A stretch of DNA of 64,000 nt from a virus. Of the stretch, positions 27,889 through 29,755 are shown piece by piece (the stretch's first letter is position 1; the number at the start of each line of letters is the position of its first letter). The stretch covers positions 1-64,000 of the IMG/VR virus record IMGVR_UViG_3300010401_000036, one strand, 5' to 3'. The position numbers were made by a program, and so were the translations under genes. Under the pieces are notes generated by a model. That model searched no databases. It saw only the letters and a list, made by a program, of their open reading frames with translations, and was not told the origin of the DNA.

Positions 27889-28071
27889 TCAAGTGGGTGT
27901 GGACTGCTCAAAGCATCTCAGAGCTGCCGCTGCTGGGCCCGGGACACTGTTTGCATAAATCCAGCGTCTAATAGTGGAAGTGTCGACTTCAAGGGCGGCA
28001 GCCATCTTTGTCTGCCACCCTCGATTACCATATAGCTTCTGACCTATAGAGATAAGTTCCTTAGCCGTCAC
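27889..28071 (-). CDS. Helix-turn-helix protein coupled to Ro60 gene
   Basis: GTG 28071 overlaps the Ro60 stop by 11 bases, so the two are translated together. 60 residues with a clear helix-turn-helix ('WQTKMAAALEVDTSTIRRWIYAN') of the type found in many rhizobial phage and chromosomal small regulators. It could autoregulate the Y RNA-Ro60 operon (inference). Confidence 0.65.
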   Translation of the reverse strand: MTAKELISIGQKLYGNRGWQTKMAAALEVDTSTIRRWIYANSVPGPAAAALRCFEQSTPT

Positions 28072-29365
28072 GTTCGACCTCGTGAACGAAGCGCAACACA
28101 CCTTCAGAAAACCCATCAATGTGGGTCCAAGCCCCATACCCAACGCCGTTCTTGTTCGACGCGACGTTGATCATATAGCCCTTGGCGAAAGCGTTTGGCA
28201 CCGCATCGTGGCTCTGTTCGTCCGTGATGACGATCAATCGGTCAGCCCTCACATTGGCATTGATCCACGCCACCGCCGCGCCAAGATTGGTGCCGTTATG
28301 AGGCTGAGACCGCACAATAGCATCAACGCCAGCCATACCCCGTCGCGGGGGTACCTCAACAATTCCATCCGAGAACGTGAATAGCCTAATATCGCCTGGA
28401 ATTATCGCGCCCAACGCCGCAGCCGCATCGATCCGCCTCATGTCCGATTTCTGCGACAATGCCCAATCCATCGATCCGGACACATCGACCATCACCACAG
28501 TTTTTCCGAGATAGACAGGAAGTTCCGTGATTGCCTCGCAAAGCGCCTGATCAAGATATGGCTCAAACTGTGGAGCAGCCCTCGCCGCTGCGACGTAGCG
28601 GAAGGGAAACACTCGCTGCGCTCCGCCCTGCCGTGCTACAATTGCCTGCCGAACCAGATCGCTATCGACGCCAGCAGCCGCCATATTACGCAGGTTTCGG
28701 AGTAGCGCCAGATAGCCGATCCCGCTCTCGCGTAATAGCCGCTCGAAAGTCTCTCGCTTGTCTTTCCCGCCGGAAAGCGCGACCTCCCAAGTGTCGGGAA
28801 TCTTAAGCGTGCGATCCTTCACCCTCTTCCATAGAGCCGACTGCTCGTCATTGGCCGGCTTCGGCCGAGCAATTCGCAAAACGTCGCGAAGCTTCACGGC
28901 CCCGTCTCGATCGTACTTTCCGAGTTGGTATTCGTCGAACTTGGCGAAGGCCTGAGCAAGACCCTTGCGCATCTGCCGTGGTACGCTCTTACGGCCGTTG
29001 CGCCAATAGACGGTCAGAAGCTCTCCCATCTCATCGGCGCGGGAGATCACTCGTGCCGTGGTGTCCGCCATCATCGCAGGCCCGGTCTTGCTGAGGATAT
29101 CGAGCAAAAGCAGGGGGACATGCCGCAGGTTGAACACTTTGCGCGCCTCGATCGCCAGCGCCGCTAATTCGGCCGGCTTCACCAGCGCTGCGGTTTCGGC
29201 GATTCGCTCAGCAATAGATTTGCCATCCTCGTAGAACTCGTTTTCCCACAATAGGCATGATAACACCGATCGGCGCAGTTGTTCGATCGGCTTGAGGCGA
29301 CCGAAAGCCGGCGCTCCTTCAGTGGTCTTGGCGGTATTTTTCGGGGAAACATTCAAACGGGCCAT
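28061..29365 (-). CDS. rsr: Ro60 / TROVE-domain RNA-binding protein (Rsr-like)
   Basis: 434 residues. An N-terminal alpha-helical TROVE (HEAT-like) ring occupies roughly 20-280 ('QLRRSVLSCLLWENEFYEDG', 'ESGIGYLALLRNLRNM'). A C-terminal von Willebrand A domain has the MIDAS motif 'VDVSGSMDW', a Thr in 'HNGTNLG' and 'VITDEQSHD'. Ro60 proteins bind misfolded RNAs in the ring and Y RNAs on its surface. In bacteria they work with exonucleases such as PNPase in RNA decay and maturation. Three Y-like RNAs lie directly upstream on the same strand, and an HTH gene is coupled downstream. Confidence 0.93.
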   Translation of the reverse strand: MARLNVSPKNTAKTTEGAPAFGRLKPIEQLRRSVLSCLLWENEFYEDGKSIAERIAETAALVKPAELAALAIEARKVFNLRHVPLLLLDILSKTGPAMMADTTARVISRADEMGELLTVYWRNGRKSVPRQMRKGLAQAFAKFDEYQLGKYDRDGAVKLRDVLRIARPKPANDEQSALWKRVKDRTLKIPDTWEVALSGGKDKRETFERLLRESGIGYLALLRNLRNMAAAGVDSDLVRQAIVARQGGAQRVFPFRYVAAARAAPQFEPYLDQALCEAITELPVYLGKTVVMVDVSGSMDWALSQKSDMRRIDAAAALGAIIPGDIRLFTFSDGIVEVPPRRGMAGVDAIVRSQPHNGTNLGAAVAWINANVRADRLIVITDEQSHDAVPNAFAKGYMINVASNKNGVGYGAWTHIDGFSEGVLRFVHEVERDG

Positions 29366-29402
29366 CAGTATTCTCCCATGGCCTCACGGCTGCCTGCCGA
29401 AT

Positions 29403-29554
29403 GATCTAAGTGAGACTGAGCAAGTGACGAAATCAGTACATTTCAGTGCTCTACCACTGAGCTACCGGGACTTCTCCCGAGTTGGATTCGAACCAACGAC
29501 CCCTGGCTCCAAAAGCGAAGTAACTGATTTCTGCAGCGTCAATCCCACTTAGAT
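29403..29554 (-). ncRNA. Y RNA 1 (YrlA-like, with permuted tRNA-like module)
   Basis: Read on the minus strand, the ends form an 18-pair stem (two G-U). Then come the conserved internal-loop motifs CGCTGCAG (29531-29538) and TCGTCACTTGC (29420-29430), and an inner 9-bp stem GAAATCAGT/ACTGATTTC. Inside is a tRNA-like module in permuted order: T arm with loop TTCGAAT (29481-29497), an acceptor-like hairpin closed by a 4-base loop (29465-29480), then the D arm (29448-29462). This is the arrangement described for bacterial YrlA RNAs. It lies 38 bases before the Ro60 ATG. Confidence 0.88.
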
Positions 29555-29655
29555 CAACAACGGAAACTAGCAAGTAGCGAGAACGGGATATGGCCACTTA
29601 AGGCCGCTCTATTGCGAAGAAGTATCCGTTACTCTGCAGCGTAGTTTCCGTTGTT
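29555..29655 (-). ncRNA. Y RNA 2 (hairpin RNA without T/D arms)
   Basis: A perfect 13-bp end stem (29556-29568 with 29643-29655; extendable to 15) encloses the same motifs as Y RNA 1: CGCTGCAG (29634-29641) and TCGCTACTTGC (29570-29580). An inner stem (29582-29590 with 29622-29629, one bulge) and a small GGCC-type hairpin follow. No T-arm or D-arm sequence is visible. It abuts Y RNA 1 and 3, so the three are probably cut from one transcript. Confidence 0.75.
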
Positions 29656-29720
29656 GCCCGGCAAGCAACGAACTCAGCATCATCGTTTCAAGAGAAGTAG
29701 CTGAGCCCTTCAGCGCGGGC
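29656..29720 (-). ncRNA. Y RNA 3 (short hairpin RNA)
   Basis: 65 bases. End stem GCCCG/CGGGC, then motifs CGCTGAAG (29708-29715) and TCGTTGCTTGC (29661-29671) matching those of Y RNAs 1 and 2, then an inner CTCAGC/GCTGAG stem and a loop containing TACTTC, which also occurs in the other two. It is first in the transcription unit; the promoter at 29727-29755 predicts a start at its first base. Confidence 0.7.
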
Positions 29721-29726
29721 AAATCA

Positions 29727-29755
29727 TATATCGTGCATTATGCGCGGTTTGTCAA
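29727..29755 (-). promoter_or_regulatory. Sigma-70-type promoter of the Y RNA-Ro60 operon
   Basis: Perfect -35 TTGACA (29750-29755), 17-base spacer, -10 GATATA (29727-29732). The predicted start, 7 bases after the -10, is G 29720, the first base of the Y RNA 3 stem. It is isolated from upstream genes by the terminator at 29760-29782. Confidence 0.7.

Follow-up and report, generated by a model that had tools for sequence, protein, structure and literature searches.

A phage ro60 gene preceded by three tandem Y-type RNAs, one of them with a permuted tRNA-like head

The DNA analysed here (the window) comprises 64,000 of the 67,381 bases of virus record IMGVR_UViG_3300010401_000036 (IMG/VR), and its sequence shows what is almost certainly a Ro60-Y RNA operon, in which three tandem Y-type RNAs precede a ro60 gene on the same strand. 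A first-pass annotation of the window had proposed a phage ro60 gene and three such RNAs in one likely operon; this proposal is borne out, and the arrangement is conserved in related loci. Comparison among these loci indicates that one Y RNA of the window is tRNA-like, that several are tRNA-like in relatives, and that RNAs built on the Y frame are conserved and covary. The tRNA-like build, which can include an anticodon-like loop, suggests that these RNAs imitate tRNAs.

The Ro60 protein and the RNAs ahead of its gene

The ro60 gene (28061-29365, minus strand) encodes a TROVE and vWA protein of 434 residues. In profile searches the protein scored 57.3 bits against TROVE (PF05731; curated cut-off 23) and 177 bits against phrog_850. 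An AlphaFold2 model based on an alignment of 33 sequences had a predicted local distance difference test score (pLDDT) of 87.7, and its best PDB matches in Foldseek were the Ro60 of Thermus phage phiLo, vertebrate Ro60 with RNA, and Deinococcus Rsr. Matches to 9kop, 9nep, 1yvp and 2nvo had E values of 1.2e-10 or better and TMq of 0.60-0.74, with the HEAT-like ring and vWA fold present. Because of the TROVE and phrog_850 matches and the likeness of the model to Ro60 and Rsr structures, the protein is identified as Ro60, with RNA binding as a prediction. The metal-ion-dependent adhesion site (MIDAS) is complete (D294, S296, S298, T359 and D382); in a protein alignment (A2), T359 is nearly invariant and the other four residues are invariant. 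Lys150 is also invariant and is aligned opposite human Lys170, a Y-RNA-binding residue, while the position of human His187 is occupied by Arg (alignment read by eye).

The three RNAs are encoded on the minus strand, as is ro60, and therefore the order of transcription would be RNA1, RNA2, RNA3, ro60, with about 38 nt separating the end of RNA3 from the ro60 ATG. RNA1 (29654-29722) consists of a Y stem and a short loop, RNA2 (29557-29654) of a Y stem whose insert is a short hairpin (AUAGAGCGGCC..GGCC), and RNA3 (29403-29554) of a Y stem with a permuted tRNA-like module. Their folding z-scores are -2.8, -5.6 and -5.3, respectively, and that of the 351-nt stretch holding all three is -6.1, with none of 100 shuffles equally stable. 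The first-pass annotation described the RNAs as differing in architecture. This is true of the loop inserts; the RNAs nevertheless share one frame, in which an internal loop, with CGCUG in its 5' half and CUUGC in its 3' half, separates an outer from an inner stem, and which also includes the box UACUUC and the insert. Inserts of the RNA2 type, with GCAUAGAGCGGGCUUCGGCCC or a near form of it, were also seen in relatives (loci L020 1762-1842, L033 2812-2909 and L035 3870-3969).

The module of RNA3 runs from an anticodon-like hairpin (UUCGC-UUUUGGA-GCCAG) through a T arm and a closed acceptor to a D arm. The last three follow the arm layout of YrlA, as seen in the alignment of the Rfam YrlA family (RF02553) and in our own alignment described below, and RNA3 scored 43.4 bits against RF02553, under its gathering score of 69 bits. 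No YrlA was found in the window at the Rfam gathering threshold, where only two real tRNAs were matched. RNA3 is not a tRNA gene in native order (18.5 bits against a threshold of 29), an ARAGORN scan found no tRNA at 29403-29722, and RNA1 and RNA2 showed no recognised tRNA module.

Conservation, arrays and transcription signals in related loci

Related loci were collected from 77 phage records with a similar protein (tblastn) and from scans of IMG/VR and GTDB genomes. An alignment of 26 permuted Y RNAs (A3), mostly from loci other than that of the window, was used to build a covariance model (R1); RNA3 was among its members, and RNA1 and RNA2 were left out. Without constraint, A3 gives the outer stem, inner stem, T arm, 7-bp acceptor and D arm. 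Of its 33 pairs, 26 change on both sides, and 97.2% of cells are paired compared with 66.6% in shuffles; the rows had been picked with a stem descriptor, so these stems were partly selected for and the pairing test alone is partly circular. Free of such selection is the anticodon-like helix, in which 81.5% of cells are paired. In a separate test, with units set by sequence motifs alone (the choice of the 3' motif being crude), the 5' and 3' arms of a unit were more complementary to each other than arms swapped within the array (mean 22.1 versus 17.4, p = 4e-11), and the own pair ranked first in 45 of 80 cases.

R1 recognised the two window RNAs on which it had not been trained (RNA1, 42.2 bits, E = 2.9e-8; RNA2, 33.7 bits, E = 5.4e-6), and RNA3, a training member, scored 114 bits. 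Throughout the 67-kb record it matched exactly the places of the three RNAs and the junction of two ordinary tRNAs (30356-30441). Together with the folding z-scores and the TROVE match, R1 confirms three hairpin RNAs ahead of a TROVE and vWA gene on its strand. Across the collected loci R1 gave 381 matches in 130 sources, a count in which the training members and some partial hits on ordinary tRNAs, few in number, are included; nearly all lie on the ro60 strand (by reading, all but one) and mostly within 2 kb upstream. The stems and motifs are conserved in related TROVE loci, contrary to the refuting outcome that the first-pass annotation had named.

The stem-and-motif descriptor, calibrated against shuffles, gave 0-3 hits per shuffled locus at a score of 25, and in the 64-kb window each strand had six or seven; as shuffles also yield hits, single low-scoring hits were not counted as evidence, and its 359 candidates include false ones. 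This Ro60 clade is represented by 168 loci, of which some are duplicates; at a score of 30, at least two RNAs were found in 95, one in 38 and none in 35. By the descriptor, eight upstream RNAs are present in CcrColossus and CcrPW (about eight being the maximum in relatives), five in Xanthomonas phages, as also in two of the three Brevundimonas phages examined, and four in L016, a relative at 74% identity. In phages of Caulobacter, Brevundimonas and Xanthomonas and in bacterial genome records alike, several such RNAs are common, and ro60 almost always follows them closely on the same strand; L014 and L017 differ in having the RNAs downstream of the gene. The one bacterial locus inspected (L142) has esterase and transporter neighbours with no sign of a prophage. 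Given these multi-RNA loci, the layout is not the unusual one that it had been taken for. Weak R1 matches (30 and 23 bits) were also seen downstream of ro60 in a crAss-like phage (L026 4424-4697).

The single promoter proposed for the operon has a candidate, TTGACA-N17-GATATA (29727-29755, minus strand), with the imperfect palindrome CGCGCATAATGCACG in its spacer. The TTGACA (29755-29750) stands 33-35 nt before RNA1, a spacing shared by several other loci, although a generic sigma-70 scan flagged no promoter before RNA1. Of 115 loci, 32 have TTGAC no more than 80 nt ahead of their first Y RNA (background 6.6%), often at 33-36 nt. Palindromes of the TGCATNATGCA kind occur in the promoter spacers of several loci, that of the window included; palindromes are modestly enriched ahead of arrays (26 loci; p = 5e-4 with mononucleotide shuffles). 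A terminator had also been noted, and a terminator-like hairpin does exist (29765-29782, minus strand), but it belongs to the upstream transcript, and none was found between RNA3 and ro60. Directly downstream of ro60, a small helix-turn-helix protein (27889-28080, minus strand), Cro/YdaS-like at a sub-threshold score, is a candidate regulator; its gene recurs after ro60 in a few close relatives (L033, L034 and L036), and autoregulation of ro60 by this protein is possible.

Composition of the tRNA-like heads

In the permuted heads a hairpin is followed by the T arm, the closed acceptor and the D arm, the acceptor end being closed by a loop of usually 2-14 nt. In the YrlA consensus of RF02553 the T arm comes only 8 nt after the outer stem begins, and in the phage members about 20 nt after it, this stretch holding an anticodon-like hairpin; because the consensus is so short there, an anticodon arm at that place looks like a variant. 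An anticodon-like arm of 4-5 bp was found in 47 of 86 permuted modules. At a fixed distance from the T arm (n = 81), U33 was present in 60% and U33 together with purine 37 in 56%, compared with a chance level of 12.5% for the combination at equal bases. In A3, the column for U33 holds T in 24 of the 25 rows bearing a letter there. Letters 34-36 differ between copies.

Three GenBank tRNAs fall inside permuted Y RNAs, namely tRNA-Thr of 10KY502B (L018 2822-2889), tRNA-Gln of CcrColossus (L020 2173-2240) and tRNA-Ser of Gurke (L021 2811-2885), and their anticodon-like letters (UGU, CUG and GCU, respectively) fit the names given. These are probably mis-annotated, so that the arrays would account for some phage tRNA annotations. 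In a few Y RNAs the arms of the tRNA body keep their native order: L016 4805-4957 (46.8 bits with the Rfam tRNA model), L101 (48.4 bits) and L109 (53 bits, CAU loop). L138, placed in this native-order class, was probably misclassified.

Other inserts were also encountered. Half-tRNA-like ones, with an anticodon-like arm and a T arm, occur at L068 3702-3799, L020 2360-2481, L022 2657-2776 and L064 14-134, and some of their loops read like CUA or UCA. Long inserts lacking a T arm form another kind of module (L144 2759-2948, L160 3117-3278, L117 3441-3603 and others), alike among acidobacterial loci and alike among Asticcacaulis and Phenylobacterium loci. Matches to permuted tmRNA lie near ro60 in phage loci (L021 6387-6732, L022 6789-7046 and L004 3208-3406).

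Possible functions and comparison with known systems

A single transcript starting at about 29720 may be cut into separate Y RNAs and the ro60 mRNA. Ro60 would bind each RNA through the shared Y stem and stabilise it, with the loop inserts facing outward. The tRNA-like heads would bind tRNA-recognising proteins, and heads with differing anticodon-like loops could keep tRNA-acting nucleases or modifying enzymes occupied during infection, or recruit them, so that tRNAs are spared or RNA decay is steered; RNA1 and RNA2 might act as gates or stabilisers of the ring. This use as tRNA mimics, whether as decoys for tRNA-acting enzymes or as adaptors to them, is the reading we prefer, tentatively and with somewhat less than even confidence, and a tether to polynucleotide phosphorylase (PNPase) comes next. 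Operon identity and tRNA-mimic use together, as the best explanation of the whole, stand at about an even chance. A narrower version is possible but doubtful: Ro60 of phages and of some bacteria would bind arrays of circularly permuted tRNA mimics, each opened between its D and anticodon arms and each bearing an anticodon-like loop of its own, and the arrays would form a changeable set of decoys or adaptors for enzymes reading the anticodon arm of tRNAs. We infer roles in RNA decay, RNA protection or resistance to tRNA damage, as the first-pass annotation had suggested, only at this level.

YrlA has been proposed as a possible competitor of anticodon nuclease, but Salmonella YrlA is uncut by that nuclease, and the inhibitor idea is there only a proposal (PMC7790460). 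Several of our own observations likewise weigh against the use of the heads as tRNA mimics. Letters 34-36 fit the isotype of the other arms weakly (top match in 9 of 47 versus 3.8 expected with shuffled labels, p = 0.008, the isotype assignment from D, T and acceptor arms being itself weak), and in some cases they misfit a real tRNA, as where GCU goes together with a short variable loop. The anticodon-like arm is absent from about half of the permuted modules and is imperfect in RNA3 (four of five pairs). A tRNA part is missing from many Y RNAs, and bacterial chromosomes hold arrays too, so counter-defence cannot be their sole use.

A decay machine like that of Deinococcus RYPER, in which the Y RNAs would join phage Ro60 to a nuclease, be it host PNPase or a different one, and feed it structured RNA, the heads acting as tethers and gates, is a possibility, if a rather unlikely one. 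This same function has been shown for Deinococcus Rsr and Y RNA, and the phage protein matches the Rsr fold, but such a machine alone leaves the anticodon-like arm and the several different tRNA-like heads per array unexplained; the window proteins that were scanned include no such nuclease, though one supplied by the host would suffice. The short distance from the last hairpin to the ATG, the lack of a detected terminator between them and the one promoter-like site ahead of RNA1 would also suit a cis-acting leader, the hairpins being a ro60 5' untranslated region bound by Ro60 for self-regulation, with no free small RNAs. We consider this improbable, as up to eight tRNA-headed copies are more than a leader needs and the RNAs of L014 and L017 follow ro60. 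Very improbable is that the heads are permuted or decayed tRNA genes giving working phage tRNAs. They do combine anticodon-like loops with T, D and acceptor arms, a CCA is still encoded in one copy of CcrColossus, and the permuted order is that of a junction between two tandem tRNA genes, such as the one that R1 matches in this record; however, a loop usually closes the acceptor, both ends of the RNA belong to the Y stem, and the match between loop letters and isotype is poor. If each Y RNA shows a different tRNA-like head, the arrays would point to tRNA-reading enzymes during infection (anticodon nucleases, modifying enzymes, PNPase), and the question of why phages keep Ro60 becomes testable with small constructs in phages such as CcrColossus.

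Elsewhere in the window, portal, major-head, adaptor and terminase matches indicate a tailed phage, and the terminase large subunit (49830-52517) contains an intein-like insert (LAGLIDADG/Hom_end match). A tRNA-Pro(CGG) and a tRNA with a CUA anticodon (named Pyl by ARAGORN) lie at 30312-30469 beside a PTH2 gene (30479-30796), and a likely sugar-nucleotide cluster (32890-38178) includes Radical SAM, SIS, E1 dehydrogenase and heptose kinase/adenylyltransferase-like genes.

Ro60 proteins encoded by phages have been reported before, as have YrlA-like phage RNAs: TROVE proteins of phages are on record (PMC7824862), and so is YrlA, on the authority of a review (cited in PMC7765460). The literature searched held no account of multi-RNA arrays or of an anticodon-like arm; key papers on bacterial Y RNAs lie outside it, so an earlier report is possible. 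Apparently undescribed is a permuted module that keeps an anticodon-like arm with letters differing between copies. The window protein belongs to the same family as the known phage Ro60 proteins (phrog_850; phiLo, 9kop/9l5y; jumbo-phage TROVE), whose accessible accounts do not describe RNA arrays. In Listeria phage CKA15 an Rsr-like gene, whose protein was detected in virions, follows three non-coding regions that are highly transcribed and are putative Y RNAs (PMC12282133), an order like that seen here; in its relative A511, however, gp57 (L234 8734-10254) has its match in DUF7788/DUF2828 instead of TROVE, and R1 did not reveal a clear Y RNA. Deinococcus RYPER likewise pairs a ring protein of the same fold with a Y RNA, and the function of Rsr, Y RNA and PNPase was shown by Chen 2013 (as cited in PMC7790460 and PMC8394870); the phage locus differs in having three RNAs and in its low sequence identity. 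It resembles the Salmonella Rsr-YrlA system (rsr-yrlBA-rtcBA) in that a Ro60 protein adjoins a Y RNA with a permuted tRNA-like module, and it differs in that no RtcB or RtcA was found among the window proteins scanned. The tRNA-like module of YrlA is itself a circular permutation (PDB 6CU1; PMC11472068). RNA3 departs from YrlA in its score, 43 bits against the 69-bit threshold, and the arrays extend the Y RNA family well below that Rfam threshold.
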